DNA of 56,447 nt from Rhodoferax sp. Its GTDB lineage: Bacteria > Pseudomonadota > Gammaproteobacteria > Burkholderiales > Burkholderiaceae_C. A program made the position numbers and the translations under genes. The DNA is taken from NCBI RefSeq assembly GCF_025356155.1, contig NZ_JANXUQ010000118.1:1-56447 (forward strand). Direction: 5' to 3'. Positions 5,002-53,399 of this stretch are shown here, in pieces. The notes under the pieces are model-generated. The model did not search any database, was not told the DNA's origin, and saw only the letters and a program-made list of their open reading frames with translations. The number at the start of each line of letters is the position of its first letter. Positions within the stretch are counted from its first letter, which is position 1.

Positions 5002-5043
5002 ATAGTCGTCCAGTGCACCGCAGCCATCTGTGCGTCAACACAC
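5002..5043 (-). promoter_or_regulatory. Stress-regulon promoter S1 (glycine-zipper gene)
   Basis: On the minus strand: GTGTG-TTGA-CGCAC (5030-5043) followed by AGA. The -10 candidate GACTAT (5002-5007) begins 22 bp after the dyad. It faces the glycine-zipper gene starting at 4910. Confidence 0.6.
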
Positions 5044-5154
5044 GACCTGATGAAATGGCGCGGTATTTATATTCAGGCCCTCCGAGGGACACCGCACAGA
5101 TGGGGGCAGTTTTCCTAACTTTTTGTCAGTTCGCTTGCCTTAACCAGCCGGTTC

Positions 5155-5930
5155 GCGTGCGCCAGTCAGACACCGTCAGTCGCCAAGGCGGGGACGAATT
5201 TGTACGGCGGCAAAGAGCTCCCTGTCGGCGTGAGCATTGGAGCGGCGGGAATTCGTGTTGCATTGCCAGCCCAAGATCGGGCTACGCGGCGGTGCCATTG
5301 TGGGTGTAGAGGCACTCATCCGCTGGCAGCATCCCAAGCACGGCCTGCTCCAGCCCAGGGACTTCGTGCCCACTGCCGAAGACTGCGGACTGATCCGCCC
5401 GATTGGCCGCTGGGTCTTGCAGGAAGCCTGTCGGCACGCCCAAGCGTGGCTGCCGGCTGGCCTGCCACCCATCATCATGGCCGTCTCAACGCATCGGCTC
5501 TGGAGTTTCGCGATGAAGACTTTCTGGAAAGCCTGCACGCCACACTGGAAGAAACACGGCTTGGTCCACACTTCCTGGAGATTGAACTCACCGAGAGCGT
5601 GTTGATTCGAAACGCAGAGGCCGCAAGGTCCGTAGTGCATGCCATCGCCACAATGGGGGTCAAGCTGGCCATAGACGATTTTGGAACCGGATACTCCAGC
5701 CTGAGTTATCTGCAACGGTTTCCCATCCATACGCTGAAGATCGACAAGTCGTTTGTGAACCAGATGACCAGCAATGCGGACGACGCCAGTATTGTCAACG
5801 CCATCATCAGCATGGGCAAAAGCCCGAGGCAGCGCCTGATCGCAGAAGGCGTGGAAACGCCGGAACAACACGCCAGCCTGCTGGCGCAGCGCACGCCCAT
5901 CCTGTTGCCTGACTCGGGGGGCATGGTGCA
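5155..5930 (+). pseudogene. Decayed GGDEF-EAL gene
   Basis: A remnant of a c-di-GMP turnover protein in at least three frames. It starts with a GGDEF signature (SDTVSRQGGDEFV, near 5163-5201), jumps to the end of a GGDEF domain (ELPVGVSIGA, near 5218-5247), then to an EAL start (REFVLHCQPKIGLRGG, EALIRWQHP) in another frame. That frame shifts near 5490 into NASALEFRDEDF, IELTESVLI and DDFGTGYSSLSYL, and runs to IAEGVETPEQHASLL. The expected end (AQGYLFSRP) is missing. Most of GGDEF and the inter-domain link are deleted. It cannot make a working enzyme. An intact homologue lies at 25759-27519. Confidence 0.85.
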
Positions 5931-6136
5931 AACAATGGCACTACCAAATATATAGCAAACTATTCAATAAAGACGAGGGCTAGAGGCACTTTTTCCTCTG
6001 ATGCCGCTAAAACAAACCTGAATTGGGTGTTACTTCATGCTGCGAGGAGTACCAAAGGTTACAAAATGGGTGCGGAGGCGTCGAATAATCCGCCATCCAC
6101 CGGCGAAGATATGCCGATTGATCGCAGAGGTAACCA

Positions 6137-7414
6137 ATGAAGCCAAAAAACACCGCATTTGCCAGCACCGCCATGGCGGCCGCCATTCTGCATCTGTGCA
6201 CGCCGTTCCAGGCGCACGCCATGGACTCGTTTGATGCGGGCAGCAAGCTGCTGTTGCTGGACGCAGTGTCCTTGGGCGGCGCCACCTACAACCAGGTGCA
6301 GGCGACCGTCAATGCGTATACGCTGCTGGGCGTGGATGGCGGCACGCCAAGCGCGGACACGTTTGATGCGGTCACCAATCTGCTCACGCTGGGGGCGGTC
6401 ACGTTCCAGGGAAACACCTACAACAACGTGCGCGTGAGGATCACGTCTTACAGCCTGCTCAGCGTGGGCGCCACACCCGGCACAGGTGCCGTCTACGCCA
6501 CCATGGCCGGTGCCAGCCTTGGTGCGGGTGCCAGCCTGAATGGGGCCATCCCCTTCCCGGCCAACAACGCGTGGAACACCGATGTGTCTGGCGCTGCGGT
6601 AGACCCCAACTCCGACGCGTTGATTTCCAGCATCGGCCTGACCCGCGGCCTGCACCCGGACTTTGGCTCCGGCCTGTATGAGGGTGCGCCGATTGGCATT
6701 CCGTATGTGGTGGTGTCTTCAGCGCAGCCCAAGGTGGCTATCACGTTCACCGACTATGGTGATGAAAGCGACCCTGGCCCTTACCCCGTGCCAGCGAACG
6801 CGCCCATCGAAGGCCAGCAGTCCAACGGCGGCGCTTTTGGCGGCGACCGCCACGTGCTGGTGGTGGACCGCGATGCCAACCTGTTGTACGAGATGGGCAA
6901 TTCCTACCCACAAGGCAACGGCAGCTGGAAGGCCAGTGGTGGCGCCGTATTCCACCTGAACTCCAACACCGTGCGCCCCGGCGGACGGCCGGGCTGGACC
7001 AGCGCCGATGCGGCCGGCCTGCCCATCTTCCCCGGCTTGGCGCGTTATGACGAAGCGGCCACCGGTGTGATCCGCCATGCGCTGCGCTTCACGGTCAGCA
7101 CCACCCGCAAGGCCTATGTTCCGCCGGCCACCCACTGGGCATCGAGCAACACCAGCGCCAATGTGCCGCCCATGGGCATGCGGGTCCGGCTTAAGGCAAG
7201 TTATGTGATACCTGCCAGCTTCAGCACCGAGAGCCGGGCCATTCTGCAAAGCATGAAGACCTACGGCATGCTGCTGGCAGACAACGGCTCCAACTGGTAT
7301 GTCAGCGGCGCTCCCGATCCGCGCTGGAACAATGACAAGCTGAACTCCGAGCTGGGCAGTGTCAAAGGCGCGAGTTTTGAAGTAGTGCGCATGGACGGCA
7401 TGGTGACACCGTAA
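6137..7414 (+). CDS. Exported protein with duplicated N-terminal module
   Basis: A 425-residue protein of unknown function. A signal peptide ends near residue 28 (PFQAHA). Two tandem modules of about 40 residues follow: F-DAGSKLLLLDAVSLGGATYNQV and TFDAVTNLLTLGAVTFQGNTYNNV, each ending in a YxLL(G/S)V motif. From about residue 130 comes a conserved-looking domain with NNAWNTDVSGAAVDPNSDALI, GIPYVVV, FGGDRHVLVVDRDANLLYEM, PGLARYDEA and WNNDKLNSELG. It would be periplasmic or secreted. The start at 6137 has a good GAGGT ribosome site. No enzyme motif was recognised. It converges on the next gene with only 34 bases between. Confidence 0.75.
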   Translation: MKPKNTAFASTAMAAAILHLCTPFQAHAMDSFDAGSKLLLLDAVSLGGATYNQVQATVNAYTLLGVDGGTPSADTFDAVTNLLTLGAVTFQGNTYNNVRVRITSYSLLSVGATPGTGAVYATMAGASLGAGASLNGAIPFPANNAWNTDVSGAAVDPNSDALISSIGLTRGLHPDFGSGLYEGAPIGIPYVVVSSAQPKVAITFTDYGDESDPGPYPVPANAPIEGQQSNGGAFGGDRHVLVVDRDANLLYEMGNSYPQGNGSWKASGGAVFHLNSNTVRPGGRPGWTSADAAGLPIFPGLARYDEAATGVIRHALRFTVSTTRKAYVPPATHWASSNTSANVPPMGMRVRLKASYVIPASFSTESRAILQSMKTYGMLLADNGSNWYVSGAPDPRWNNDKLNSELGSVKGASFEVVRMDGMVTP

Positions 7415-8360: not shown

Positions 8361-8477
8361 GGTGGTAGGTGTGTGTCCGTTTCGTTGATACGCAATTGCC
8401 CAGAGATGGTGCCATTCTCCTGGTGATTGGTCAGTGCGCCATCTCACATCCAGATTCTGGCACCACTTTGTTTCAAC

Positions 8478-19121: not shown

Positions 19122-19328
19122 TTAACGGTTTTTGATGACGTCATCAGCCAACTCTTTGGCGCTCTTCACGATTTCCTTGACATCACCGGCGCGCTTTTCA
19201 GCTTTGCCTTCTTGCTGCTTTTGCAAGCCCTTCAGTTGTTGTGTGGTGCTGCCTACCAGCTTGCCAGCTTCTTCTTGCACCTTACCGGCGATGTTCTTGG
19301 CGGTGCCTTCGATTTGGTCTTTATTCAT
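19122..19328 (-). CDS. CsbD family stress protein
   Basis: A 68-residue hydrophilic protein of the CsbD family. It starts with MNKDQIEGTAKNIAGKVQEEAGKLVGS, the family hallmark, and is rich in K, E and Q. CsbD-like proteins are induced by general or osmotic stress in many bacteria; their molecular role is unknown. A stress-regulon promoter (S2) lies 101 bp upstream with a TACTAT -10. A second CsbD-like gene lies at 53096. Confidence 0.88.
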   Translation of the reverse strand: MNKDQIEGTAKNIAGKVQEEAGKLVGSTTQQLKGLQKQQEGKAEKRAGDVKEIVKSAKELADDVIKNR

Positions 19329-19394: not shown

Positions 19395-19436
19395 ATAGTA
19401 AGAAAAAGCTGGAGCGCCATCTGTGCGACGGCGCAC
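19395..19436 (-). promoter_or_regulatory. Stress-regulon promoter S2 (csbD-like)
   Basis: Minus strand GTGCG-CCGT-CGCAC (19423-19436), a perfect dyad, then AGA. The -10 TACTAT (19395-19400) begins 22 bp later. Confidence 0.75.
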
Positions 19437-19468: not shown

Positions 19469-19485
19469 GTTCGCTTGCGCACCGA
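19469..19485 (+). promoter_or_regulatory. Stress-regulon-like dyad S8
   Basis: GTTCG-CTTG-CGCAC followed by CGA on the plus strand. No -10 is found 22 bp downstream, and the next gene starts about 195 bp away. The weakest member of the set; it may be an accessory site. Confidence 0.35.
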
Positions 19486-34660: not shown

Positions 34661-34670
34661 GTATGTTCCT

Positions 34671-35876: not shown

Positions 35877-35877
35877 C

Positions 35878-37547: not shown

Positions 37548-38191
37548 AAACCCCGCACCTGAAAATCACCACCCACCGCATGCGTCTGCTGGGCGTTTGC
37601 ACGGCCGTTGCAGCGCTGAGCGCGTGCGGTGTGCTGCAGCCCAAATCGTCAACCCCGCCGAGCTATTACGCGCTGGAGTATGCGCGCCCCAGCGCGCCCA
37701 CCACCACACCCCGCGCTCCGCTGGCCAACGCCCCCACGCTGATCATCAGCCCGGTGCGTGCCGCGTCGGGCTTTGACAGCCAGCGCATCATCTATGTGCG
37801 GGAGCCGCACAAGCTGGAATACTTTTCGCACAGTGAGTGGATCGACGCCCCGGCCCGCATGTTGGGGCCACTGATGGTGGCATCCATTGAACAGACTGGC
37901 GCATTCCGCGCAGTGGTGATGACACCGGCATCGGCCGGTGGTGACCTGCGCCTGGATACTGAAATTGTCCGCTTGCAGCACGATTTTCAAACCAAGCCCA
38001 GCACCGTTCAATTCACACTTCGGGCCTATCTGGTGGACGAGAAAACACGCAAGGTGGTTGCATGGCGGACGTTTGACAACCAGGCTGCCGCGAGTAGTGA
38101 CGACCCACGTGCGGGTGTGGTTGCAGCCAACCGCGCGGTGCAAAGTGTGCTGGAAGAGTTGTCGCAGTTTCTGATACAACGGGCCCAGTAA
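37544..38191 (+). CDS. ABC-type transport auxiliary lipoprotein, PqiC-like
   Basis: A 215-residue lipoprotein (lipobox VAALSAC) of the ABC-type transport auxiliary family found in MCE operons. Segments include YYALEYARP, PTLIISPVRAASGFDSQRIIYVREPHKLEYFSHSEWIDAPARML (in pieces), RLDTEIVRLQHDF and VLEELSQFLI. It should anchor in the outer membrane and connect the MCE tunnel. Overlaps mlaD-like gene by 4 bp. A terminator follows. Confidence 0.85.
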   Translation: MKTPHLKITTHRMRLLGVCTAVAALSACGVLQPKSSTPPSYYALEYARPSAPTTTPRAPLANAPTLIISPVRAASGFDSQRIIYVREPHKLEYFSHSEWIDAPARMLGPLMVASIEQTGAFRAVVMTPASAGGDLRLDTEIVRLQHDFQTKPSTVQFTLRAYLVDEKTRKVVAWRTFDNQAAASSDDPRAGVVAANRAVQSVLEELSQFLIQRAQ

Positions 38192-38614: not shown

Positions 38615-38656
38615 ACTATAAAAATGTCCAGCGAATTCGTCCGTGTGGTAGCGCAC
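38615..38656 (-). promoter_or_regulatory. Stress-regulon promoter S4 (BON lipoprotein)
   Basis: Minus strand GTGCG-CTAC-CACAC (38643-38656) then GGA. The -10 TATAGT (38615-38620) begins 22 bp later. Confidence 0.75.
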
Positions 38657-38684: not shown

Positions 38685-41600
38685 TTACCCTGCTTGCAGA
38701 GGAATGACGAAACAGGCATCTCCCGCCAAGTCCGCCCATTGCAGCGCCTGCCCAGGGCGCAGCGCATGCGCACCCAAGGCCGTGGTCGCCTCCAGCGCAT
38801 CACCCAAATTGGCCCGCATAAAGATGAAGCGCATATTGCGCGTGCCGCGCACCAGCGTCATCTCCGCCCGGTCCCAATGCGACGGCAGGCAGGGCTGGAA
38901 TGCCAGCTCGCGCGCACCCAGTTGCAAGCCAAAGATGGATTCGATGGCGGCGCGGTGCATCCACGCCGCAGCACCGGTGTACCAACTCCAGCCACCGCGT
39001 CCGACATAGGGCGGCTGGGTGTAGACATCGCCGGCCATGGCATACGGTTCGACTGCGTAGGCGGTACCCCGTGTGAGATGGTTGGCACGGTGCGCGGGGC
39101 TTAAATAGGTGAAGTAGCGGTAGGGGTCGTCACCCCCGCCCGTGGGGTGCTGCGCATCTTTGGCGCGGGCCGCTTGCGCCATCAGTGCCCACACGCCCGC
39201 GTGTGAATACTGCCCACCGTTTTCGCGGATGCCTGGTGGATAGGCCTGTATATAACCCGCGCTGGGTACAGCCTGGCTGAACGGTGGGTCCAGCAGTTTG
39301 ATCAAGCCCGTCTCAGCGTCTACCAATTGCGCGTCCATCGCAGTGAGTGCCATGCTTTGCATATCAACCGGGACCGCATCGGACAGTACCGACCAGGCCT
39401 GTGCGATGAGGTCGATACGCGCCTCCGCATTGGCACTGGAGCCCAGCGGCTGACCATCGTCGAAGAAGGCACGCTTAAACCATCGGCCATCCCATGCGGG
39501 CCCTTGCAGAGCGGCTTTCCAGCCCTGGATGGCAGTCTCCCAAGACTTAACACGTTCACCTTCCCCGCGCTCCCTCGCCAGTGGTACAAAGTCGGCCACC
39601 AGGCGGCATAAAAACCAGGCAAGCCAGACCGATTCGCCACGGCCTTCAATACCCACGCGGTTCATGCCGTCATTCCAGTCACCACTGCCCATCAGCGGCA
39701 AACCGTGCACACCCACCCGAAGGCTGCGGTCGATGGCGCGCGCGGCATGGTCGTAGACCGAAGCAGCGTGCGGGCTGACGCCGGGTGTGTAGTAGGCGTC
39801 TTCCGCACCTTCTGGAATAGTGGCACCCTCCAGAAACGGAACCTGTTGGTCCAGCAGGGCCATGTCTCCGGTCGCGTTGACATAACGTGTGCAGGCGTAA
39901 GCCAGCCACAACAAATCATCCGAAAAATGGGTACGCACGCCGGCACCCAACGGGGCGTGCCACCAGTGCTGCACATCGCCCTGCTCAAACTGGCGGGACG
40001 CGCACAGGACGATTTGCTCGCGCAGCATCTGCGGCGCAGCCCAGGCGAGCGCCATGGCGTCTTGCAATTGGTCGCGAAACCCGGTGGCACCACCCGCCTG
40101 GTAGAAGCCAGCCTTGGCCCACAAGCGGCAGGTCACGGTTTGGTACAGCAACCAGCGGTTGACCATGGCATCAAACAGGGGATCGGGCGTCTGGACCGTC
40201 GTGGCACCCAGCAACTGGTTCCACCAGTCATGCACAGCCTGCAGGCGCCGCTCAGCCGACTGCGCAGCTGCCGAGGTGGCCAAGGCCAAGGCGGCGTCGG
40301 CATTTTCTGCATAGCCGAGCAGGAAGATGCGCTCACCCGACGCGCCCACGCCCACATCCATGCGCGAAGACAGCGCAGCGCAGGGGTCCAGACCTATGCC
40401 ACTGCAGCGCCCAAATTGGGCGGGAAGCTCGAAATGTCCACGTGCATCAAAACATTCGCGCCGGTCACAGGTCCAGTCGTTTATCTCGTCAGTCCCACCG
40501 GCAAGACTCAAGAACGCCGTGCCGTCCCCAAAACCGGCGGAGCGCTCCCGCTGCGTGCAGAGCAGTACCGCGAGGCTGCCTTCCGGCGTGGGCTGACGGC
40601 AAAAGTCCGTTTGCACCGTACCGCGGTCTGCCCGGTTGGCGCCCATCATCCATTCGGCCATGCCAATGACACGCAAGTGCGCAGTCTTGGGACCGTGGTT
40701 GATGATTGACAGCCTGATTTGTTTGACGGAGGTCTGTGTATCCACGCACCAGCTTGCAGCGATCTCCAGACCGCCATGGTTGTGGCTGATCACGGTATAA
40801 CCCTGGCCGTGGCGTATCTGGTATTGGCTGGCGTCCGCACCCCATGCGTTGGGTGTCACGCTCCAGACCTTCAGGGTTTTGAGGTCTTGCAGCAAAAACC
40901 ACTCAGCGGGCGGGTCAGCCACCGGATCGTTGGACCAGGCGGTCAACTGGTTCAAGCGGCTGTTCAGCGCCCAGGTGTATCCGCTGCCGGCCTCCGACAC
41001 CTGTGCACCGAAGCGCGGGTTGGACAGCACATTGATCCATGGCTTCAGGGGCCTCACGCCGGTTGCAACCGCAAACGCAAACTCTCCGGTGTCCTGCAAA
41101 AAAACACCCTTGGGCGCGGTTACCGTGAGGCCGATGCGGGCACTCGCCAGCAAGCCCGTGCCAGACGTCGCCATGCGTTCTTCCTGAGCTTGGTCATGCA
41201 GGGCCATCCATTCCTTGACATGGTGGGCCAAGGGGCGACCGTCCGCATAGAGGCGTACACGTGCATGGGCTTTGAGCGTACTCAGTTCGTCTGCCATCAA
41301 TTCATTCGCCCGCAAGAGCACAAAGCCCGTAATGGCGGGCCGCGAGGGCGCGCCGGTGTCGAAAGCATGGCGGTCACGCAGAGCGACAATCTCGCGCTGC
41401 AAAGCCATGTCGTATGACGCTGGCTCAGAGTTCACAACCACCAGGTCGCACGCGATGCCACCCCAGGCCCACAAGTTCAGTGCCTGCGCCATCACGCGCA
41501 ACAGACCCAGGCCTTGCAGCACACCTGCAGATACCAGAATCAGTGGGCGATCTCCCGAGATGCCAAAACGCCACAACAAGCGGCGATCACACACCCCGGA

Positions 41601-44600
41601 TTTGAGCCCGCTGGCCGTAGGTACACGCTGGGATGGCCGGGTCAGTGTCAACACCATGGCCGTGGTCAGTGTTTGCATGGCCGCGAAATTTTCGGCACTG
41701 ATGCGCAGGCCACGCAGGCGAATCCCCATCAAGGTGGCAGACATCAACGATGCGCGTTTGACGTTGTTGATCTGGCGGTATTTGTCGATCACCGCACGCA
41801 AGGTGGCTCCGTTGTCGGACACCGCCGTGGCAAAGGTCAACTGGATACGCGCTTTCGGTGCTATGTGCACCTGCACCGCCAATGCACACATCGGGTCCAG
41901 TCCGGTGACCAGCTCCTTGCTAGTCTCGCTTGTCGTTTCAGGCAACGGGTCTAACGAAGCCAATGGGTTGGCCGTGCAATGGTTGCGGCCCAACCAGCGT
42001 TGTCGGTCGGTCTGGATCGCCACGCCTTGTATACGCGGATCAGACGTGGTCAGGAAGTGCGCCACTTGCAGACTTTGCTCAGTCGGCAGGCGCGGCTTTC
42101 GCTCGAATAGCAAAGACTGGTGGGTAATCAACCATCCGGCACGCACAAAGAGATTGGTAAACGCCGGGTGCGCCTCATCAGCGAGGCGGTCGGCCAATGT
42201 GGGCTCGAAGGCTGAGATGATTTCCAAGTCGAGGGTCTTGTCGCTGTCGTTGCGGAGCTCGACCATGCGAAACTCGATGTCATCTTCCGGGCTGACCCAT
42301 ACGGTGGTTCGCGCATGCAGGTCGGCCCACGTGGTGTCAAAACACACACGGTCTGCGTGGTAGACGCTGCTGTAGATGGCACTCGAGTCCGGCGCGGGGT
42401 GCTGCGTCAACGATACAGGTTCGCGTTGACGATCCCGTCGCAGGTACAAGAAGCTGCCGCGATCGTCCCGCAGGGCATCATCACGCTGGCGCGTGATACC
42501 AGTCTGACCCCAACGACTCCACCCCGCGCCATTGGCCCGCAAGGATACGCTGTAGCGGCCGTTGGAAAGCAAGTGTGTAGGCTCCACCGCCGACATGCCC
42601 GGCAACACTTCACGCAGCAAACTGGGCACACGCCGACGTTGTTGCGCCACGGGCCTGGAGACGGCTGGAGGTGCATACAGCAATGACACCGCCCGTGGGA
42701 CCGGTTCGTGCAGCAGTGAGGCCACTGACTCAACCGATGCATTGGCCATGCCCCAGCGCTGGGCCGGTCCGTTCAGCAACGCGTGGGCTAGGGCGACGAT
42801 GCTCATGCCCTGGTGGTGGGCCATAACGGTATCTACTGCGGAGAACGGTCTACCGTCCACACGGCGCGCCGCAGTGTAGTCCAGGGCGTCGACAAAGCCA
42901 TAGCGGCCGCGCGCACCCAAGCCTTCGAGCACACGGAAATTTTCCGCGGCGCAGCGCGGTGCAATCAACGCGGCCAGGGCGGTGGCATAGGGCGCAATCA
43001 CAAGGTCATCGGGCGGCGTGCGCCTCAGAGCCAATCGCGGCACGCCTTGTGGCGCATATTGGTAGGCCAGCGTGTGGTCGCTGGCAGCATAGGCCGATTC
43101 TGATACGCCCCAGGGCAGGCCCTGGGATCGGGTAAACAATATCTGCTCATGCAAGGCTGCATGGCATGCTGCCTGTAAGACGCTGCCCTTGGGTTCGGCA
43201 AGCACTAGGCTGGGCATCAGGTATTCGAACATGGAACCCGTCCAGGACCGCAAGCCCACACGGGTGCCGACGGCAAAGAACGGACGCCCCAACGAGGCCC
43301 AGTGGCGGACCGGCACGTCGCCTTTTGCAATGGCAAGCAGGCTGGTCAAGCGGGACTCGGACGCCAGCAAATCGTAGAACGCGGCATCGCGTTGGTGTTC
43401 AGCCACGCGGTAGCCAATATGGAACAACCGCCGCTTGCTGTGGTACAGGAATGTGAAGTCGGCCTGCCACGCCAGATCGGCATAGGCGTTGGCCAATTCG
43501 CGCAAGCGCTGGGCGGCGTGGGCTGCAACTGCATCCTGGTCCAGCGCTACGGAATTCAGCGTTGCCCGGTGGTCGGCCAGCATCCACCGCAATTGCTCAC
43601 GCTGGGTCGGCGGCAATTGCAGCCGCTGTGCCAGCAGCGGCGCCATGCGTGCACGCGACATGGCTATGGCCCTCAGCCCTGCGGCATTGTCCAAAGGCGC
43701 TTTGGCCAACTCCATGCACGCCTGCGCAACTGCCAGCAAGTGACCTGAGAGATTGCCGCTGTCCACCGTTGACACGTACATGGGCAGCAGCGGTGCACAG
43801 CTTTGTGTGTCGTACCAGTTCAAGAAATGGCCTCGGTGCCGCTGCAGCTTCAACAGGGTTGCCAGTGTTGCATCCAGGCGACCCAACAGGTCCTGCGTAC
43901 CGATCCAGCCGAACTGCCGCGCGCAAGCGGCGCTCAACAAATAAAGACCAATGTTGGTGGGCGAGGTGCGGTGCGCCACCATATCGTGCGGCGCAAGCTG
44001 CAGATTGTCTGGTGGCAAGTAGTTGTCATCAGCGCCCACACAGCGCTCAAAAAGGCGCCAGGTATCGCGCGCAATACCATCCAGGTATACGGCATCAAAT
44101 GCAGAGAGCATTGCATCCGTAGCCGGCGGTTGCGGACGACTGGCCCACCAGATCCAGATGGGCGATCCCGCCCACACGGCACACAGCAACGACGCGAACA
44201 CGGGGTGGGGTGTGCCCGCCAACAGCAACATGGCGAGCAAGGCCAAAGCGACCACCGGCTCTACCCCATGCAGGCGGGCAATGGCCGCCAGCGAGGTCCT
44301 GGCCCTGGCCTGCGCTACCGCAGCGGTGGTCCATTGCAACAACTGGCGGCGACTAACAAAGCTGCGGTGCAGCGCGCGTGCAATGGCGTCCACCGCCAGC
44401 AGCGACTGCTGCAACAACTGCGCGACATGCCAGACCCCACCCGCCAAGGCGCGCCCCAAAACAACGGCAGCCTCTACAAAAAAACGCCGCTTGGCGAGAT
44501 CCACCTGCCGAGGCGAAAACCCGGCGAGCGCACCCATCAGAGGGCCAGCGGAAAACGCTAAAAACACCAAGGCTAATGCGGCCACCGGCGACACGGCGCC

Positions 44601-47135
44601 GCCCGCCAATGACGCCAACAAGAAGACCAGCGACAGCGGCGCCACCAACGATCGGCGCAAGTTGTCCAACATTTTCCACAGATTGACGGCACGTATCCCG
44701 TACTGCCGGGGTCGCAATAGAGAGGCAACGACGATCGGCAACAACTGCCAGTCGCCGCGCGTCCATCGGTGCACACGCGCGGACGCAACGTCGGCGTGGA
44801 ACGGTGCGTCTTCAATAACGGAGATGTCCGTCACTGCCGCACAGCGCGCAATCGACCCTTCCAATAAATCGTGGCTCAGTACCTGGCCTTCCGGCAAACG
44901 GCCTGCAAGCACTGCGTGCAATGTCTTGACATGGAGCAGTCCTTTGCCGGTAAACGTGCCTTCGCAAAATAGGTCTTGGTACACCTCGGAGCTGGCCGCG
45001 CTATAGGGGTCGATGCCGCACTGGCCAGCGAACAACCAATGGAACGGCGTGACCTGCTCAGTCGTAGGCAGCGGTGTCACGATGCGGGGTTGCAATATTC
45101 CGTAGCCGCTGACAACCCTGCTCCCACTGGCATCAAGCTGGGGTTGGTTCTGCGGGTGTGCTGCGACGCTGACCAGCTCGCGCAGGCGACCGGGAGGTAG
45201 CAGGGTATCACTGTCCAGAGTAACGATATATTGGATGTTGCTGGCCACACGCGATGCAAGACCAAGGTCAAAAAAAACGTCGCTGGAGCCCGTGGCCAAC
45301 GCCGACACCAATTGCTCCAATTTGCCGCGTTTGCGCTCCCAACCTATCCAACACTGTTCAGTTTCGCTAAATTTCCTACCGCGGTGCAGAAGGATGAAAC
45401 GCGGAGCCACGTTGGAATCGGACTCGACCTGAGCCCGAGGGTGGCGACTGTTGAGGTCCTCCACCTGCTGCTGCGTTAGCGTCAGCAAAGCGCCGTCGCT
45501 GGCAACTTGTGCGCTATCTGCATCCGCCCAATCGGTCAGCAGCGCGAACTGCGCCTCGTTTTCCGGGTTGGCGAGATAATGCAACTCCAGGTGGTGGACC
45601 AGCTCATGGGTCGATGCGGCAGACGTCAGCATGCCGGGAATCACGACGAGCACACGATGCTCCGCCGGAATGCCATCGACCAGGGCCAAGCGAGGCAGAT
45701 GGTGTGGACGGGCAGACTCGCTGATCAACCGGTTGATGACGGCCACCACAGCTTCGGATGCGGGGAACAGCATCGCCAGCACACAGACAACGGTCAACCA
45801 GGTGTGCTCCGCTGGTCCGACCACCTTCAGTCCGTGGTGCAACAGCAACCAGACCAGCAGGGACAATACACCCGCCATCACCAATAGATAGGTCGGCAAG
45901 GCAATGCGACGGACACAGTTTTGCCAGAAATATCCGGCTCTGTCGGGCAAGCCTAGGGCCCGCATCAACGCTGACTGGCCTCCACCACCAAGCCAGTGGT
46001 GGGCCACTTCGGTCGAGCCATCCGCGCTGTCCGTGGGGTGCATCAGCTTCAGCAGTGCCTGCGCGACGGATATCTCGCTCAAACCACTGCGCCGGGCGAG
46101 CTTTTCGATCGCGTGCAGGGTCTGGTCGCGCGTGGCATCGTCCTCCGCGCAAAAAAGTTTGGAGGTCAACATCAGTTGCATAAGGGCGCTGGTGCGCGCA
46201 ATGATGCCCGACCAATCGGCATCGCCAATGGCGCGCAGTGACATGACGGCGTTACTGACACTTAAATTGTCTTGGGCCTGGTCAGCACTTTGCTGGATCT
46301 GCATGGCCCCCAGATCAGGCAGTGCATGGCGCAACCAGGCTTGGACGGGACTCTGCCCGTTGTCTTCACCGGCCGTGCGCCGGTCTTGCAGGCGCTGTGC
46401 CATTTGCGCAAGAAACACACGCCCCACACCCCGCATAGTCAACAGCGCCAGCAGTCTGTCCAATGCGTCGCCATCGTAACTTTCGATGCGGTCGAAGCAC
46501 AGATTGGCAACCTCACGGGCAGCCTTGTTGGTCGCCACACGTTCCGCCAGCCGACGCAGGTTCTCGATCAAGACCACACGCAGGGTGGTGGGCAAAGCCC
46601 ACACCTCGCTGAGCTTGAGTTCACGTACTTCCTGGTAAGCCTTCAGAAAATGCGCCAACAGTTCTTCGTCGAAAGCCCCATCGGTATGGGCAACGAATGC
46701 CCACGCGACGCCATAAACACGCGGAAGACCCGCCAAGGGCTCGTCTTGCAGCACGGGTAAGCTGCGAAAGTAGCTGCGCGGAAGCCCTTCATGGATTTCT
46801 TTGAGCTGCGCTTCTATCGTGTGAAAGTTATCCAACAGCCATTCAGCGGCGGGACTGATGTCATATCCAGTACTGGCTTGTACCCCAATGTATTGGTGCG
46901 CCTCGCGCAGGACTTTGATGTTGCTTTTGAGACGGGGAAAGAAGGTCGCCGCAAAGACAGAGACCTGCGCTGCCCTATGGGTGGCGCCCAAGCTTTGACC
47001 GTGCTGGTTGAACCGCTGCGCGCCAAAAATTTCAGCGCGTATGGGCGGGGGAATCACTCCACGCGACGGATCCAATATTTCGCACAATGCAGCCGGTGCA
47101 CCGGGAATCAGGCCGGTCAAGGCAAATCGAGCCAT
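38685..47135 (-). CDS. ndvB: Cyclic beta-1,2-glucan synthase, NdvB/ChvB-like
   Basis: A giant membrane enzyme of 2816 residues. It has an N-terminal region with a GT84 glucosyltransferase domain (about 430-860: ALVDGIPAEHRVLVVIPGMLTS, YIVTLDSDTLLPPGRLREL, ARVHRWTRGDWQLLPI, and membrane helices), a middle glucan-processing region, and a C-terminal GH94 glycoside phosphorylase-like domain (about 2000-2800: FRDQLQDAMALAWAAP, MGSGDWNDGMNRVG with catalytic Asp, YVGRGGWSWYTGAAAWMHRAA). Such enzymes build and cyclise periplasmic beta-glucans for osmoadaptation and host contact. Start ATG 47135 is 3 bp from the stop of a small membrane gene. Its size matches Rhizobium NdvB (about 2830). Confidence 0.92.
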   Translation of the reverse strand: MARFALTGLIPGAPAALCEILDPSRGVIPPPIRAEIFGAQRFNQHGQSLGATHRAAQVSVFAATFFPRLKSNIKVLREAHQYIGVQASTGYDISPAAEWLLDNFHTIEAQLKEIHEGLPRSYFRSLPVLQDEPLAGLPRVYGVAWAFVAHTDGAFDEELLAHFLKAYQEVRELKLSEVWALPTTLRVVLIENLRRLAERVATNKAAREVANLCFDRIESYDGDALDRLLALLTMRGVGRVFLAQMAQRLQDRRTAGEDNGQSPVQAWLRHALPDLGAMQIQQSADQAQDNLSVSNAVMSLRAIGDADWSGIIARTSALMQLMLTSKLFCAEDDATRDQTLHAIEKLARRSGLSEISVAQALLKLMHPTDSADGSTEVAHHWLGGGGQSALMRALGLPDRAGYFWQNCVRRIALPTYLLVMAGVLSLLVWLLLHHGLKVVGPAEHTWLTVVCVLAMLFPASEAVVAVINRLISESARPHHLPRLALVDGIPAEHRVLVVIPGMLTSAASTHELVHHLELHYLANPENEAQFALLTDWADADSAQVASDGALLTLTQQQVEDLNSRHPRAQVESDSNVAPRFILLHRGRKFSETEQCWIGWERKRGKLEQLVSALATGSSDVFFDLGLASRVASNIQYIVTLDSDTLLPPGRLRELVSVAAHPQNQPQLDASGSRVVSGYGILQPRIVTPLPTTEQVTPFHWLFAGQCGIDPYSAASSEVYQDLFCEGTFTGKGLLHVKTLHAVLAGRLPEGQVLSHDLLEGSIARCAAVTDISVIEDAPFHADVASARVHRWTRGDWQLLPIVVASLLRPRQYGIRAVNLWKMLDNLRRSLVAPLSLVFLLASLAGGAVSPVAALALVFLAFSAGPLMGALAGFSPRQVDLAKRRFFVEAAVVLGRALAGGVWHVAQLLQQSLLAVDAIARALHRSFVSRRQLLQWTTAAVAQARARTSLAAIARLHGVEPVVALALLAMLLLAGTPHPVFASLLCAVWAGSPIWIWWASRPQPPATDAMLSAFDAVYLDGIARDTWRLFERCVGADDNYLPPDNLQLAPHDMVAHRTSPTNIGLYLLSAACARQFGWIGTQDLLGRLDATLATLLKLQRHRGHFLNWYDTQSCAPLLPMYVSTVDSGNLSGHLLAVAQACMELAKAPLDNAAGLRAIAMSRARMAPLLAQRLQLPPTQREQLRWMLADHRATLNSVALDQDAVAAHAAQRLRELANAYADLAWQADFTFLYHSKRRLFHIGYRVAEHQRDAAFYDLLASESRLTSLLAIAKGDVPVRHWASLGRPFFAVGTRVGLRSWTGSMFEYLMPSLVLAEPKGSVLQAACHAALHEQILFTRSQGLPWGVSESAYAASDHTLAYQYAPQGVPRLALRRTPPDDLVIAPYATALAALIAPRCAAENFRVLEGLGARGRYGFVDALDYTAARRVDGRPFSAVDTVMAHHQGMSIVALAHALLNGPAQRWGMANASVESVASLLHEPVPRAVSLLYAPPAVSRPVAQQRRRVPSLLREVLPGMSAVEPTHLLSNGRYSVSLRANGAGWSRWGQTGITRQRDDALRDDRGSFLYLRRDRQREPVSLTQHPAPDSSAIYSSVYHADRVCFDTTWADLHARTTVWVSPEDDIEFRMVELRNDSDKTLDLEIISAFEPTLADRLADEAHPAFTNLFVRAGWLITHQSLLFERKPRLPTEQSLQVAHFLTTSDPRIQGVAIQTDRQRWLGRNHCTANPLASLDPLPETTSETSKELVTGLDPMCALAVQVHIAPKARIQLTFATAVSDNGATLRAVIDKYRQINNVKRASLMSATLMGIRLRGLRISAENFAAMQTLTTAMVLTLTRPSQRVPTASGLKSGVCDRRLLWRFGISGDRPLILVSAGVLQGLGLLRVMAQALNLWAWGGIACDLVVVNSEPASYDMALQREIVALRDRHAFDTGAPSRPAITGFVLLRANELMADELSTLKAHARVRLYADGRPLAHHVKEWMALHDQAQEERMATSGTGLLASARIGLTVTAPKGVFLQDTGEFAFAVATGVRPLKPWINVLSNPRFGAQVSEAGSGYTWALNSRLNQLTAWSNDPVADPPAEWFLLQDLKTLKVWSVTPNAWGADASQYQIRHGQGYTVISHNHGGLEIAASWCVDTQTSVKQIRLSIINHGPKTAHLRVIGMAEWMMGANRADRGTVQTDFCRQPTPEGSLAVLLCTQRERSAGFGDGTAFLSLAGGTDEINDWTCDRRECFDARGHFELPAQFGRCSGIGLDPCAALSSRMDVGVGASGERIFLLGYAENADAALALATSAAAQSAERRLQAVHDWWNQLLGATTVQTPDPLFDAMVNRWLLYQTVTCRLWAKAGFYQAGGATGFRDQLQDAMALAWAAPQMLREQIVLCASRQFEQGDVQHWWHAPLGAGVRTHFSDDLLWLAYACTRYVNATGDMALLDQQVPFLEGATIPEGAEDAYYTPGVSPHAASVYDHAARAIDRSLRVGVHGLPLMGSGDWNDGMNRVGIEGRGESVWLAWFLCRLVADFVPLARERGEGERVKSWETAIQGWKAALQGPAWDGRWFKRAFFDDGQPLGSSANAEARIDLIAQAWSVLSDAVPVDMQSMALTAMDAQLVDAETGLIKLLDPPFSQAVPSAGYIQAYPPGIRENGGQYSHAGVWALMAQAARAKDAQHPTGGGDDPYRYFTYLSPAHRANHLTRGTAYAVEPYAMAGDVYTQPPYVGRGGWSWYTGAAAWMHRAAIESIFGLQLGARELAFQPCLPSHWDRAEMTLVRGTRNMRFIFMRANLGDALEATTALGAHALRPGQALQWADLAGDACFVIPLQAG

Positions 47136-47413: not shown

Positions 47414-47455
47414 AGTATTGGCGTTGCGCGCCAAATGCTCTGTTCGCTGTACAAC
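47414..47455 (-). promoter_or_regulatory. Stress-regulon promoter S11 (ndvB operon)
   Basis: Minus strand GTTGT-ACAG-CGAAC (47442-47455) then AGA. The -10 candidate AATACT (47414-47419) begins 22 bp later. The left half-site is weaker than in other copies. Confidence 0.55.
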
Positions 47456-48430: not shown

Positions 48431-48814
48431 TTATTGGGTTGCTGCGCGGTCAAGTTCCGCGCGCAGAACGCGGATGTCTTCTTGCAGAGTGGCCGAAACA
48501 GCCTGGGCTTTGGCGGAGCCAGCTTTGGCCTGCGCCAGCTTGGCATCGGCCTGTGCCTGGTTGGCGTAATCGGTGGCGGCTTTGTAGTCTTTGGCAGCCA
48601 GGGCTTGCTTGGACAAAGCCAGTTTTTCCCGGGCCTTGCGCATATCTTCAGGCGCGAACTCCGTTCCATCGGCGCTGCTGGCGTTTTCCACTGCCGCTTG
48701 AGACACTGCAACGTCGGCCGTAGCCGGCGCTTTCAAGCTGCTCGTGCACGCTGCAAGGGTCATCCCTCCAAACACGCACGCGCCCAATAGCCAGGATTTG
48801 GATATTTGTTTCAT
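48431..48814 (-). CDS. DUF4398-type lipoprotein
   Basis: A 127-residue lipoprotein (lipobox MTLAAC). The mature part is helical (DMRKAREKLALSKQALAAKDYKAATDYANQAQADAKLAQ), a TPR-like DUF4398 unit. The same fold is found in the N-terminus of the downstream OmpA lipoprotein. It probably interacts with that protein. Promoter S12 lies 91 bp upstream. Confidence 0.82.
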   Translation of the reverse strand: MKQISKSWLLGACVFGGMTLAACTSSLKAPATADVAVSQAAVENASSADGTEFAPEDMRKAREKLALSKQALAAKDYKAATDYANQAQADAKLAQAKAGSAKAQAVSATLQEDIRVLRAELDRAATQ

Positions 48815-48869: not shown

Positions 48870-48911
48870 TTTGTAAAGCGTCTGGTTGATCCCGTCTGTG
48901 TCTTGCCGCAC
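48870..48911 (-). promoter_or_regulatory. Stress-regulon promoter S12 (DUF4398-OmpA operon)
   Basis: Minus strand GTGCG-GCAA-GACAC (48898-48911) then AGA. The -10 candidate TACAAA (48870-48875) begins 22 bp later. Confidence 0.6.
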
Positions 48912-48986: not shown

Positions 48987-49028
48987 GTGCAATGGCGCAC
49001 GGACCGAAAGGGAGTGACCCGCAAACAT
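48987..49028 (+). promoter_or_regulatory. Stress-regulon promoter S13 (OmpA barrel gene)
   Basis: GTGCA-ATGG-CGCAC (48987-49000) then GGA. The -10 candidate AAACAT (49023-49028) begins 22 bp later; it is weak. Faces the gene at 49081. Confidence 0.6.
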
Positions 49029-49080: not shown

Positions 49081-50223
49081 ATGAAAAACTTTAAACCACT
49101 CTATTGGGTTGGCATTGCAGGGTTAGGCTCCATCCTGGCAACATCTGCGCTGGCGCAAGACAGCAAGTACTATTACTGGGGCCTGGGGGTTGGTCAATCA
49201 CAATCCCAGCTAGATGACCGGCAGACAACCAACAGTCTGCTGCGTTCGTCCACTAGCCCGGGATCGTTTACCAGCGAACGCCAGGATACGGCTTACAAAC
49301 TGTTCGGCGGCTACCAATTCAACAGAAATATCGGTTTGGAATTTGGCTATTTCAATCTTGGCAAATTCACCTACGGCACCTCCCTGCCGGGCGGCACCTT
49401 GAATGGCCGCTATGAAAACGAAGGCGTGAATTTGGATCTGGTTGGCACCATGCCCTTGAGCGACAAGTGGTCCGCATTGGCCCGTATCGGTGCACAGTAC
49501 TCCAACACCCGAGATGCATTCGGTGGCCCCGGCCTTCCAGCCACTGCATCCAACGACAACAGCCAGCGCGACACCAACGTCAAGGTCGGTTTGGGCTTGC
49601 AGTATGAACTGACACCTTCTATCTTTGTGCGTGCAGAAGCCGAGCGCTTCCGCATCAAGGACGGCGTTGGCAGCAATGGCGATGTGAACTACTACTCGAT
49701 GTCCTTGGTGTTTCCTATCGGTCGCCATGCAGCAACACCAGTCGCTGCACCCGCCGTGTATGTGGCACCGCCCCCCCCTCCTCCACCTGCGCCCGTGATG
49801 GCACCTCCTCCTCCACCACCGCCCGCTCCTGTTGCGATGCCGAAGAGGGTGCAATTCTCGGCTGACTCGCTATTTGCCTTTGACAAGGCCGTGATTCGCC
49901 CGGATGGCAAGACTGCGCTGGACACGTTTGCCCGTAACTTGCAAGGTTCTCGCTACAGCATGATTTCTGTGGAAGGCAACACTGATCGACTCGGCTCCGA
50001 TGCCTACAACCAGAAGCTATCGCAGGAACGTGCCGATGCCGTCAAAGCGTATTTGACCGCCAGCGCGGGGATTGATGCACGCAAGATCACATCCAAGGGT
50101 CGCGGGGAAACCAACCCAGTGACCAAGCCAGGTGATTGCAAAGGTAACAAGCCCTCGCCTAGCCTGATTGCTTGCCTGCAACCTGATCGCCGTGTGGACG
50201 TTGAAGTCACCGGTGAACGTTAA
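49081..50223 (+). CDS. OmpA-family outer membrane protein
   Basis: A 380-residue porin-like structural protein. The signal peptide ends ALA-Q (residue 25). An eight-stranded barrel of the OmpA type (about 26-220: YYYWGLGVGQSQSQLDD, YKLFGGYQFNRNIGLEFGYF, WSALARIGAQYSNT) is followed by a proline-rich linker (APPPPPPPAPV repeats, about 227-255) and a peptidoglycan-binding OmpA domain (about 258-378: QFSADSLFAFDKAVIRPDGK, VEGNTDRLGSDAYNQKLSQERADAVKAYL, CLQPDRRVDVEV). It carries a pair of cysteines in the C-terminal domain. The start follows GAAGGAAAG. Confidence 0.9.
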   Translation: MKNFKPLYWVGIAGLGSILATSALAQDSKYYYWGLGVGQSQSQLDDRQTTNSLLRSSTSPGSFTSERQDTAYKLFGGYQFNRNIGLEFGYFNLGKFTYGTSLPGGTLNGRYENEGVNLDLVGTMPLSDKWSALARIGAQYSNTRDAFGGPGLPATASNDNSQRDTNVKVGLGLQYELTPSIFVRAEAERFRIKDGVGSNGDVNYYSMSLVFPIGRHAATPVAAPAVYVAPPPPPPPAPVMAPPPPPPPAPVAMPKRVQFSADSLFAFDKAVIRPDGKTALDTFARNLQGSRYSMISVEGNTDRLGSDAYNQKLSQERADAVKAYLTASAGIDARKITSKGRGETNPVTKPGDCKGNKPSPSLIACLQPDRRVDVEVTGER

Positions 50224-51268: not shown

Positions 51269-51427
51269 TCAGATCCGTCCCATCAGCAGCAATATCAGGA
51301 CAATGACGACGATCAGACCCAAACCACCGCTAGGTCCGTAACCCCAACTCCGGCTATGGGACCAACTCGGCAGGGCGCCCAACAACATCAGCACCAGCAC
51401 AATCAGCAAAATGGTTCCTAAGCTCAT
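51269..51427 (-). CDS. DUF3309 small membrane protein
   Basis: A 52-residue protein MSLGTILLIVLVLMLLGALP, then WSHSRSWGYGPSGGLGLIVVIV and LILLLMGRI. Two membrane helices flank a WGYGPSGG turn, the DUF3309 hallmark. Function unknown; common among stress-linked genes in Proteobacteria. Promoter S10 lies 107 bp upstream. The ribosome site AGGAG is 6 bases from the ATG. Confidence 0.88.
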   Translation of the reverse strand: MSLGTILLIVLVLMLLGALPSWSHSRSWGYGPSGGLGLIVVIVLILLLMGRI

Positions 51428-51498: not shown

Positions 51499-51540
51499 AG
51501 AATAAATATGTTGCGTACATCCATCTGTTCGATAGACCAC
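51499..51540 (-). promoter_or_regulatory. Stress-regulon promoter S10 (DUF3309)
   Basis: Minus strand GTGGT-CTAT-CGAAC (51527-51540) then AGA. The -10 TATTCT (51499-51504) begins 22 bp later. Confidence 0.7.
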
Positions 51541-51595: not shown

Positions 51596-51637
51596 GTACG
51601 CCCTCACACAGACTTCAACCATATGCGGTGCAGAATG
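51596..51637 (+). promoter_or_regulatory. Stress-regulon promoter S16 (DUF3096)
   Basis: GTACG-CCCT-CACAC (51596-51609) then AGA. The -10 candidate CAGAAT (51631-51636) begins 21 bp later, one base off the usual spacing. Confidence 0.55.
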
Positions 51638-51684
51638 CTGGAATCTGAACCGTTTGGTGTTCAGCAGCTTTGGAAATACTACCC

Positions 51685-51840
51685 ATGAATATTCACCTCG
51701 GTCTCACACCCCTGATCTCGCTGCTTGCCGGCATACTTATCCTAATGGTGCCTAGGCTGTTGAACTTTATTGTTGCGATCTACCTGATTGTGATTGGGCT
51801 ACTGGGCATCTTTGGTGCCGGAGCTTTCCGCCTCAATTAG
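51685..51840 (+). CDS. DUF3096 small membrane protein
   Basis: A 51-residue protein with two hydrophobic helices (LISLLAGILILMVP and LNFIVAIYLIVIGLLGIFG) joined by a short RL turn. The PRLLNFIVAIYLIVIGLLG segment is the DUF3096 signature. Function unknown. Driven by S16. It converges on the AI-2E transporter gene. Confidence 0.85.
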   Translation: MNIHLGLTPLISLLAGILILMVPRLLNFIVAIYLIVIGLLGIFGAGAFRLN

Positions 51841-51890: not shown

Positions 51891-53075
51891 TCAGTTGCCC
51901 AATAGTTCGCCGATGGATTCAAAGTCGTCAATGCTGTCGCAGACGACTTTGATGACAACCAAAATTGGCACCCCCAGCAATAGGCCCCATATACCCCAGA
52001 GCCAACCCCACGCCAGTACCCCAATGAAGATGCCCAAGGGGTTCATCTTGCTAGCGCGGCTGGTGAGCCAGGGGGTCAGCAAAAAGGCCTCGATCGAATG
52101 GATGAGCAGGGAAACGCCGCTAACTAACAGCGCCATCTCCAGCGTGCCGAACTGCAGAAAACCCACCATGGCAGAGCCCGTGGCGATGACGACGCTACCG
52201 ATGTAGGGCACCAGGTCCAGCACACCGGCGGCCACACCCCATACGGCCGCATTCTCCAGGCCTATCGCCAAAAATGCCAGCCATGTTGCGACGCCCACCA
52301 CTGCGCTGGTGAACAGCTGCACCAGCAGGTAACGCTGGATCTGGTCGTGGATTTGGTTCAAGGCTTGCAAGGTCACTTTCTTCTTGCTTAAGGTGGGCCC
52401 CGCGAGCTTGACCAGTTTGCGTCGGAACTGGTCTCCCGACGCGAGCAGGAAGAAGGTGATTAGTGCCACCATACCCATCTGCCCCAGGCTAGCCAGCAAT
52501 CCCATGGTTCCGGTCCACAGGTGGTCTTTGATATCAAACTTGGACTTGACGACCTGTACCTGCTGCACACCACGGCGCAGTGGTGCGTCCTGAGCAGTCT
52601 CGTCTGCAACCTGTTCAATTTGGGCGGCGGCCTTTTGCATGGTAGTCAGGGCGCTATCCGGCCGACCCAATGGGGTACGCACGGAGTCATGCAGTTTACG
52701 TGCTGCGGTGGGCAGCAGTTCTACCAGCTTGTTGGCTTCATCCGCCAATGAATAGGCCGCCACACCCAAGCCACTGGCGATGCCCAAAATGAGCACAGCG
52801 GCGGAAATGCCACGTGGAATACGGAATGCATGCATCCAGTTCACAACCGGAGACAGCGCATAACTGAAGAGCACGCCCACCAGCACGGGAATGAATACGG
52901 CACTGGCCCAATGCAAGGTATACAAGCTGGCTAATGTAGCCAACAGCACCAGCGATACGCTGCGTACGTCAACGGGCATGTGCAATAGCACCCGCGCCGA
53001 CTCCGCCGGCTCCAATGTTGCGTCAGACACACTGTCCACCACGCCCGCGCTTGTCGCGCCCTTTGGATTGACCAT
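51891..53075 (-). CDS. AI-2E/PerM family transporter
   Basis: A 394-residue inner-membrane protein with about eight helices. It belongs to the AI-2E transporter (PerM/TqsA) family. Segments include FIPVLVGVLFSYALSPVVNWM, RGISAAVLILGIASGLG, ITFFLLASGDQFRRKLVKL, LENAAVWGVAAGVLDLVPYIGS and the C-terminal PILVVIKVVCDSI. Members export autoinducer-2 or peptides, or act as Na+/H+ antiporters, so the substrate is unknown. A CsbD-like gene is 20 bp upstream in the same direction, and S9 probably drives both. Confidence 0.88.
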   Translation of the reverse strand: MVNPKGATSAGVVDSVSDATLEPAESARVLLHMPVDVRSVSLVLLATLASLYTLHWASAVFIPVLVGVLFSYALSPVVNWMHAFRIPRGISAAVLILGIASGLGVAAYSLADEANKLVELLPTAARKLHDSVRTPLGRPDSALTTMQKAAAQIEQVADETAQDAPLRRGVQQVQVVKSKFDIKDHLWTGTMGLLASLGQMGMVALITFFLLASGDQFRRKLVKLAGPTLSKKKVTLQALNQIHDQIQRYLLVQLFTSAVVGVATWLAFLAIGLENAAVWGVAAGVLDLVPYIGSVVIATGSAMVGFLQFGTLEMALLVSGVSLLIHSIEAFLLTPWLTSRASKMNPLGIFIGVLAWGWLWGIWGLLLGVPILVVIKVVCDSIDDFESIGELLGN

Positions 53076-53095
53076 GAAAACCTTCTCTTCAGAAC

Positions 53096-53296
53096 TTACA
53101 GATGCAAACCTCTGCCGTGACCCATAGTACGCCGCGCGGCTTCCTGGAAGTCGCCCAGCCGCCTTTCGGCAGCACCTAGCACCTGGCGCTGCAGACCGCG
53201 CAGTACCTGTTTCCGGTTCCCCAGAATGTGGCCCGTCTGTTCTTGAACCTTGCCAACGAGGCTCCTGACGGTACCGTGGATGTGGTTTGCGTTCAT
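53096..53296 (-). CDS. CsbD-like protein
   Basis: A 66-residue CsbD-like protein (MNANHIHGTVRSLVGKVQEQTGHILGNRKQVLRGLQ, in pieces). It keeps the family's I-x-G-T-x-x-x-x-V-G-K-V-Q-E-x-x-G core but is more basic and arginine-rich than the 19122 copy. It is the second CsbD gene of the island. Promoter S9 lies 97 bp upstream. Confidence 0.78.
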   Translation of the reverse strand: MNANHIHGTVRSLVGKVQEQTGHILGNRKQVLRGLQRQVLGAAERRLGDFQEAARRTMGHGRGLHL

Positions 53297-53357
53297 GCTG
53301 GTCTTTCGTTAGAGCAATGGAGGGTCGGCCGTCAGACAGTAGAAGGCTCGCAGCTGG

Positions 53358-53399
53358 ATCGTAAAAAGTTCTGCGCTTTCGCTCCGTTCGCTGGCATAC
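53358..53399 (-). promoter_or_regulatory. Stress-regulon promoter S9 (CsbD-like, AI-2E)
   Basis: Minus strand GTATG-CCAG-CGAAC (53386-53399) then GGA. The -10 TACGAT (53358-53363) begins 22 bp later. Confidence 0.72.

Follow-up and report, generated by a model that had tools for sequence, protein, structure and literature searches.

Within the Crp/Fnr family of transcriptional regulators, the operator of E. coli FNR is TTGAT-N4-ATCAA, and the CRP-type operator (CRP, GlxR, Mycobacterium CRP) is TGTGA-N6-TCACA, in which R180 of CRP contacts a G; the cyclic AMP (cAMP) phosphate cassette of CRP includes E72 and R82. OsmY, OsmB and CsbD are products of general-stress genes that are controlled by RpoS or sigmaB in E. 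coli and B. subtilis. Here we describe a dyad of two five-base arms separated by four bases, found at sixteen positions in a 56,447-nucleotide stretch of DNA from Rhodoferax sp. (assembly GCF_025356155.1, contig NZ_JANXUQ010000118.1, positions 1 to 56,447; the window), and a Crp/Fnr-family regulator gene in the same stretch. We propose, with a probability of roughly 0.86, that the dyad is the operator of the regulator encoded at 33293-34027, which would act as a class II activator of sigma70 promoters for envelope and osmotic-stress genes.

In the proposed mechanism, a dimer of the regulator would bind T-N-T-GTGCG-N4-CGCAC-A-N-A centred at -41.5 and, once bound, would activate sigma70 promoters in the class II manner. 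The target promoters are predicted to have a weak TAnnnT -10 hexamer together with a residual -35, xxGACx, lying 17 bp from the -10 and overlapping the operator's downstream arm. The regulator would turn on largely clustered genes of the envelope and of osmotic stress; it would probably also activate its own operon (autoregulation), whose hybrid kinase and REC-PAS protein likely bring in the signal.

The dyad and its spacing to the -10 hexamer

The preliminary description of the window had listed sixteen copies of GTKCG-N4-CGMAC. All sixteen positions are right, but the pattern is too strict, since only 6 of the 16 match it exactly, four others having one mismatch and six having two. The ten inexact sites point to a degenerate operator, best written TCTGTGCG-N4-CGCACAGA. 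The six exact copies compare with 0.61 expected in shuffled sequence, and none of 100 shuffles reaches six. For graded scoring, a 22-column dyad matrix was counted on 224 sites of other genomes, those sites having been found with the window's own matrix. Fourteen window positions score at least 14 bits, whereas 100 column-permuted matrices gave a mean of 0.21 such positions and a maximum of 3. Equal density inside coding DNA, a possibility raised with the original list, was not seen in the window: all 14 positions are intergenic and none is coding, a split that rests on a gene list in which 89% of the window is coding and some starts were set by hand (the STAS/MlaE gene and two BON genes, where automatic calls overlapped dyads). 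When the cut is lowered to 10 bits, one listed site (5030, 12.7 bits) and one coding position (8434) are gained; the weakest listed site, 51527, scores just 8.6 bits. The coding position at 8434-8447 (13.1 bits) is the sole unlisted one above 10 bits and is probably due to chance. No known RNA family reached its gathering score in the window. Over the whole source genome (a 5.09-Mb draft in 318 contigs with 6.2% contamination), the exact 17-mer GTKCGN4CGMACRGA was found 10 times on both strands versus 3 times for a reversed control, and 6 of the 10 matches fall in the 56-kb contig, one dyad being counted on both strands.

A -10 hexamer had been described as starting exactly 22 bp from the dyad, and this spacing holds: xAnnnT is present there on at least one side at 13 of the 16 window sites, the exceptions being 19469, 48898 (TACAAA) and 51596 (hexamer at 21 bp). 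The stricter TAnnnT occupies this spacing in 11 of 32 window flanks and appears 0-2 times at every other spacing from 0 to 59. The choice of the window sites was visual and may have been influenced by the -10; sites taken from other genomes by dyad score alone are therefore the cleaner test. Among 447 flanks of such sites, TAnnnT starts at 22 bp in 94 and at 23 bp in 17, against a background of about 2.8 per spacing; the highest other count is 14 at spacing 1, within the operator's own edge, and the xAnnnT background at other spacings is about 20 of 447. Ten further sites of the source genome outside the window are readable in full (truncated loci L117 and L121 were excluded), and six of them have xAnnnT at 22 bp. 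TAnnnT at this distance puts the centre of the dyad at -41.5 from the predicted transcription start; judged by the spacing in the window and in 80 ortholog loci (described below), the dyad would thus occupy the class II position.

A Crp/Fnr-family regulator and its occurrence with the dyad

The preliminary description had named kinases and envelope genes downstream of the dyads and no DNA-binding protein. Of the 22 matches that a search of the source genome for cyclic-nucleotide-binding domains gave, one falls in the window (33401-33643), and the regulator was found in this work as a divergent 244-amino acid protein encoded at 33293-34027 on the plus strand (longest open reading frame from 33191). 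Two domains score above cut-off, PF00027 (31.3 bits, cut-off 27.5) and PF13545 HTH_Crp_2 (48.2 bits, cut-off 27), and no NCBIfam model matches the protein at E 0.001. A structure predicted from 43 sequences has a mean predicted local distance difference test (pLDDT) score of 73.5, with residues 65-93 under 50, and its best PDB matches are GlxR, Mycobacterium CRP and FNR (E from 5.9e-10). By its domains and modelled fold, the regulator is assigned to the Crp/Fnr family. It has at least 8000 relatives, and the best 120 of these, where named, are called only "Crp/Fnr family transcriptional regulator" or "CRP-like cAMP-binding protein".

A REC-PAS protein without a recognised DNA-binding domain (32446-33267, plus strand, Pfam) is encoded directly upstream of the regulator, and a hybrid histidine kinase with the domain order CHASE3-PAS-HisKA-HATPase-REC (28170-31316, plus strand, Pfam) is the probable first gene of the operon that ends with the regulator. 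Counted in genes from the regulator, the REC-PAS cluster occupies position -1 in 61 cases in the ortholog loci and the kinase cluster position -2 in 43; regulator, REC-PAS gene and kinase are the conserved core. Because the dyad at 28023 precedes this kinase-to-regulator operon, positive feedback is predicted to be likely.

In the aligned recognition helix, GVRRESVTEAAG, Arg186 corresponds to CRP R180 and Glu187 to CRP E181, and Glu191 takes the place of CRP R185. Of 43 orthologs, 39 have an acidic residue (Glu or Asp) at position 191. In a diverse set of 31 sequences (the window regulator and 30 homologs, with L136:2513-3241 and two L146 readings left out), Arg186 is present in 31, Glu187 in 22 and Arg at position 191 in two. 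The base-contact roles of R180, E181 and R185 in CRP are those given in a 2025 survey of the Crp/Fnr family (PMC12531629), which describes the base-contact residues as broadly conserved; the loss of R185 in the present regulator departs from that statement.

Conservation in relatives, proposed earlier as a check, was borne out around orthologs of the regulator. These loci are the best 80 from one scan of named genomes (73-91% identity; Rhodoferax, Polaromonas, Rhodocyclales, Nitrosomonas, Methylotenera, Hydrogenophilales and others). With the window matrix, 246 sites of at least 14 bits were found in 73 of the 80 loci, with the same spacing to the -10, and 211 of the 246 are intergenic by a rough gene call though about 81% of the sequence is coding. 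Twenty column-permuted matrices gave a mean of 10 sites and a maximum of 41 on the same loci, and one site was found in 18 control loci, 55.5 kb in all, that encode further PF00027 proteins of the source genome and from which a paralog (L027) and the regulator itself (L028) were excluded. An unbiased palindrome search (6 bases) of the 80 loci placed the dyad among the most frequent, other palindromes ranking equal or higher.

A class sample of 229 genomes, 20 of which have a strong homolog (E 1.2e-74 or better; next best 4.4e-53), gave the same pairing. At no more than one mismatch, the 20 genomes hold 57 sites (2.85 per genome; reversed control 0.50) and the remaining 209 hold 74 (0.35 per genome; reversed control 0.45); three or more sites occur in 11 of the 20 versus 2 of the 209. 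When the source genome is left out, the mean of the strong-homolog genomes is 2.63 sites. The difference in site counts has a Mann-Whitney p of 7.7e-9 (4.0e-8 without the source genome), values that overstate independence because the 229 genomes are related by descent. Beside the homologs, a site of at least 16 bits lies within 1.5 kb in 15 of 23 loci encoding proteins of 39-79% identity and in 0 of 7 encoding Crp/Fnr-like proteins of 21-26% (the fragment L148 is in neither count). Near three alphaproteobacterial relatives of 34-44% identity there are 1, 0 and 0 sites of at least 13 bits, so the code seems not to extend to these relatives, and near one beta relative at 53% there is one. The earlier view, that the dyad has the 5-N4-5 layout of a Crp/Fnr site at -41.5 but different bases, thus gains support from the spacing, from the Crp/Fnr gene in the window, from the tracking of dyad and gene across genomes and from the presence of sites beside related regulators.

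Several points weigh against this interpretation and are collected here. The window sites served as seed for the matrix, presence of the regulator was the criterion by which the 80 loci were selected, and the related species among them are non-independent. In the source genome the excess is weak when two mismatches over 20 bases are allowed (36 sites versus 24, with 8 of the 36 in the window). Five of the 20 regulator genomes have no site at one mismatch, although next to the regulator of two of the five (G140 and G150) there are sites of 20-23 bits, and the regulator loci of G017, G026 and G174 show no site. Two paralogs of the source genome at 51-53% identity (L110 and L111; contigs C205 and C143) have no dyad of at least 9 bits within 1.5 kb. 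A Methylomagnum plasmid (L160) encodes a regulator with Arg186-Glu187 and has no site in 21.8 kb, and a homolog with Val at position 187 (L147) nevertheless has two sites above 20 bits beside it.

It is improbable that another DNA-binding protein reads the dyad and that the Crp/Fnr gene is a further target or a neighbour. Binding by the Crp/Fnr protein is itself a prediction, and the REC-PAS and kinase genes are conserved neighbours as well; however, the REC-PAS protein is without a recognised DNA-binding domain, and the half-site geometry and the -41.5 position are typical of the Crp/Fnr family. Plasmid-borne regulators also argue for the Crp/Fnr protein as the reader: three with Glu187 (pKLC102, Variovorax and Acidovorax; 64-66% identity) have 6, 3 and 4 sites of at least 13 bits nearby, versus 0, 0 and 1 for three with Ser or Ala at position 187 (63-65% identity), two of the three with Glu187 also having a second paralog.

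Two simple accounts of specificity within the helix were considered. Glu187 as the sole determinant is suggested by the plasmid regulators and contradicted by L147 and L160, and it is kept as a working hypothesis. Residue 188, which distinguishes ES from EG helix types, was rejected as the source of the G/T difference, the motif being nearly identical in both types. A second Crp/Fnr paralog with Val or Ser at position 187 is found nearby in eight loci (L130, L131, L132, L135, L136, L140, L157 and L159).

Promoter type and target genes

Of the 224 sites of other genomes, 155 have xAnnnT at 22 bp on a single side, 30 have it on both sides and 39 on neither. When the 155 are oriented by their -10, both arms are conserved, and beyond the core and its edges almost nothing is shared but the -10 and the -35 region. 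The promoter-side frequencies are 89% for G at -33, 95% for A at -32 and 51% for C at -31, the mirrored far-side G being present in 18%; in the window, G at -33 is found in 14 of 16 flanks with a -10 versus 4 of 16 without (Fisher p 0.001). The -35 region reads xxGACx, with three matches to TTGACA in the correct register and a 17-bp spacer. Our interpretation is that these are sigma70 promoters and that the activator overlaps their weak -35.

The preliminary description had offered a rival account in which an alternative sigma factor would use CGMACRGA as its -35; the upstream half of the dyad would then be incidental. The far stronger conservation of the promoter-proximal G at -33 than of its mirror and a 17-bp spacer that suits a sigma factor speak for it, but conservation of the distal arm (G 99%, T 95%, C 75%, G 95%, outer T 85%) is close to that of the proximal core, the -10 is TAnnnT, of the sigma70 type, and the dyad tracks the Crp/Fnr gene. 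The promoter-specific feature is the G at -33, and because only the promoter-proximal flank carries this residual -35, a class II activator at -41.5 working with sigma70 is the better fit, an alternative sigma factor being very improbable. No sigma-factor gene was detected in a Pfam scan that covered the window proteins at 18359-54407 and 4425-4952 and 10 cluster representatives, most neighbour genes of the 80 loci lying outside it. A repeat or mobile palindromic element spread between genes is hardly credible in spite of the many similar palindromes within one 56-kb region, given the fixed spacing to the -10 and the near absence of shared sequence beyond core and edges other than the -10 and -35 region.

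Taking the regulator as the reader of the dyad, its predicted regulon can be listed. Downstream of the sites in the 80 loci and the window lie 245 genes, 196 of them with xAnnnT at 22 or 23 bp. By number of loci, the families with such promoters are BON/OsmY-like proteins (30), hybrid kinases (21), REC-PAS proteins (10), OmpA-family proteins (10), a 71-amino acid membrane protein without a Pfam match (9), STAS/MlaE (8), OsmB-like glycine zippers (7), sll1863-family proteins (7), AsmA (6), a WXXGXW-repeat protein (5), crystallins (4) and DUF3309 (3). Outside the window in the source genome, the downstream genes include those of an AsmA protein (contig C309), a Ysc84-domain protein (C13) and a ferritin-like protein (C15). 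As judged from these families, the predicted targets are mostly envelope and osmotic-stress genes.

The sites of the window begin with the dyad at 5030-5043 (minus strand, 12.7 bits, G at -33), which has GACTAT at 5002-5007 as its -10 and a glycine-zipper-like protein as its predicted target (4425-4952, minus strand; Gly-zipper match below the Pfam cut-off). The dyad at 19423-19436 (minus strand, 20.6 bits, G at -33, exact core) has TACTAT at 19395-19400 and lies upstream of a CsbD gene (19122-19328, minus strand, Pfam); 46 bp away, the dyad at 19469-19482 (18.7 bits) also has an exact core and has no -10 at 22 bp. The highest score belongs to 22700-22713 (24.7 bits), which is flanked at 22 bp by TATGCT in both directions (22672-22677 and 22736-22741), each time with G at -33; its predicted targets are genes of a PLD-domain protein (21232-22644, minus strand) and an sll1863-family protein (22831-23115, plus strand). 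Two dyads then lie close together. The one at 24361-24374 (minus strand, 22.3 bits, G at -33) has TACGCT at 24333-24338 and precedes a beta/gamma-crystallin gene (23185-24303, minus strand, Pfam); the other, at 24404-24417 (plus strand, 18.5 bits, G at -33), has TACCAT at 24440-24445 and would serve a nucleotidyltransferase (24470-25762) and a PAS-GGDEF-EAL protein (25759-27519; both Pfam).

The dyad at 27912-27925 (20.9 bits) has CACAAT at 27884-27889 on its minus side, toward an OsmB-like glycine zipper (27596-27811, minus strand; OsmB match below cut-off), and TACTAT at 27948-27953 on its plus side, there without G at -33. Upstream of the kinase operon, the dyad at 28023-28036 (plus strand, 15.9 bits, G at -33) has TACGAT at 28059-28064 and is the site of the predicted autoregulation. 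At 34699-34712 (22.1 bits), CAATGT at 34671-34676 is on the minus side and TACGCT at 34735-34740, without G at -33, on the plus side; the predicted targets are a gene with two BON domains (ATG at about 34624, minus strand) and a STAS/MlaE operon (34611-38191, plus strand, start uncertain; Pfam). The dyad at 38643-38656 (minus strand, 20.9 bits, G at -33) has TATAGT at 38615-38620 and precedes a BON/OsmY-like gene (ATG near 38572, minus strand), and that at 47442-47455 (minus strand, 14.3 bits, G at -33) has AATACT at 47414-47419 and as predicted target the gene of a 2816-amino acid, NdvB/ChvB-like GH94 protein (38685-47135, minus strand; GH94 domains of 363.6 and 333.5 bits).

In the remaining part of the window, the dyad at 48898-48911 (minus strand, 16.7 bits, G at -33) has TACAAA at 48870-48875, which lacks the final T, and precedes a DUF4398 gene (48431-48814, minus strand, Pfam); that at 48987-49000 (plus strand, 16.3 bits, G at -33) has AAACAT at 49023-49028 and precedes an OmpA-family gene (49081-50223, plus strand, Pfam). 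The site at 51527-51540 (minus strand, G at -33) has TATTCT at 51499-51504, upstream of a DUF3309 gene (51269-51427, minus strand, Pfam), and the one at 51596-51609 (plus strand, 16.5 bits, G at -33) has CAGAAT at 21 bp (51631-51636), upstream of a DUF3096 gene (51670-51840, plus strand, Pfam). The last dyad, 53386-53399 (minus strand, 20.8 bits, G at -33), has TACGAT at 53358-53363, with a CsbD-like protein (53096-53296, minus strand; CsbD match just below cut-off) and an AI-2E-family transporter (51891-53075, minus strand, Pfam) as predicted targets.

Some features near these genes were noted in passing. Between the hybrid kinase and a CheB gene, the stretch 31240-31847 has a CheB-like start and a kinase ATPase end in different frames and is probably the remnant of a larger gene. 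A very large GH94 or glucoamylase-family gene, such as that at 38685-47135, is also found beside or near the regulator on three plasmids (L156, L159 and L165). In plasmid pKLC102 (L156, 11112-17379), the 66% homolog lies near a very large GH94 gene, with 6 dyads of at least 13 bits in 21.7 kb (permuted control 0.1), one of them preceding a fatty-acid desaturase gene and having xAnnnT at 22 bp.

Signal and relation to known systems

The regulator has only four cysteines in its 244 residues, at 145, 156, 222 and 224, and all four, together with His149, are invariant in 43 orthologs. All 31 sequences of the diverse set have Cys145, His149, Cys222, Cys224 and Tyr225, and 22 have Cys156; the aligned second paralogs have Ala in place of Cys156. 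Our best guess, drawn from this conservation, is that the signal sensor near the hinge is a metal, iron-sulphur (Fe-S) or thiol site. Sensing of cAMP was set aside, as an alignment with GlxR, judged by eye, shows no Glu or Arg at the places of the canonical cassette. Arg at column 97, beside a cassette position, occurs in 20 of the 31 diverse sequences and in 3 of the 43 orthologs, and on account of the former a nucleotide-like ligand is still conceivable. A wider picture, which is rather doubtful, is that of a large Crp/Fnr subfamily that would sense metal or redox state, not cAMP, through Cys145, His149 and Cys222-X-Cys224 at the hinge and C-terminal helix, would have its own code GTGCG-N4-CGCAC set by Glu187 and the loss of Arg185, and would form with the hybrid kinase and REC-PAS protein a portable envelope-stress unit on chromosomes and putatively on plasmids.

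A search of the open-access literature, mostly without subscription journals, did not find this operator or regulon described. The operator code, the subfamily and the regulon would be new, and the kind of regulation itself is known. An abundant group of regulators thereby gains a candidate operator, a promoter geometry and a list of predicted targets; envelope genes of unknown function (BON, DUF3309, DUF3096, DUF4398, CsbD) become one predicted regulon with testable promoters, and the invariant Cys/His set offers a concrete hypothesis for the signal.

In comparison with FNR, the modelled regulator has the same fold family (Foldseek E 1.5e-9 to 1.9e-9 to A. fischeri FNR), and the 5-N4-5 dyad and the class II position at -41.5 are alike, but the operator bases differ and the N-terminal Fe-S cysteines are missing. 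The target families overlap with the OsmY, OsmB and CsbD stress genes (BON/OsmY-like proteins, an OsmB-like glycine zipper, CsbD), whereas the present promoters carry a Crp/Fnr-type operator at -41.5. With CRP and GlxR the regulator shares its predicted fold (GlxR 3r6s being the best match, E 5.9e-10, TM-score 0.63) and the residues R180 and E181, and the present operator keeps the G at the base contacted by R180; unlike CRP, the regulator has Glu for R185 and none of the canonical cAMP cassette residues, and the inner bases of its proposed operator are CG instead of GA.

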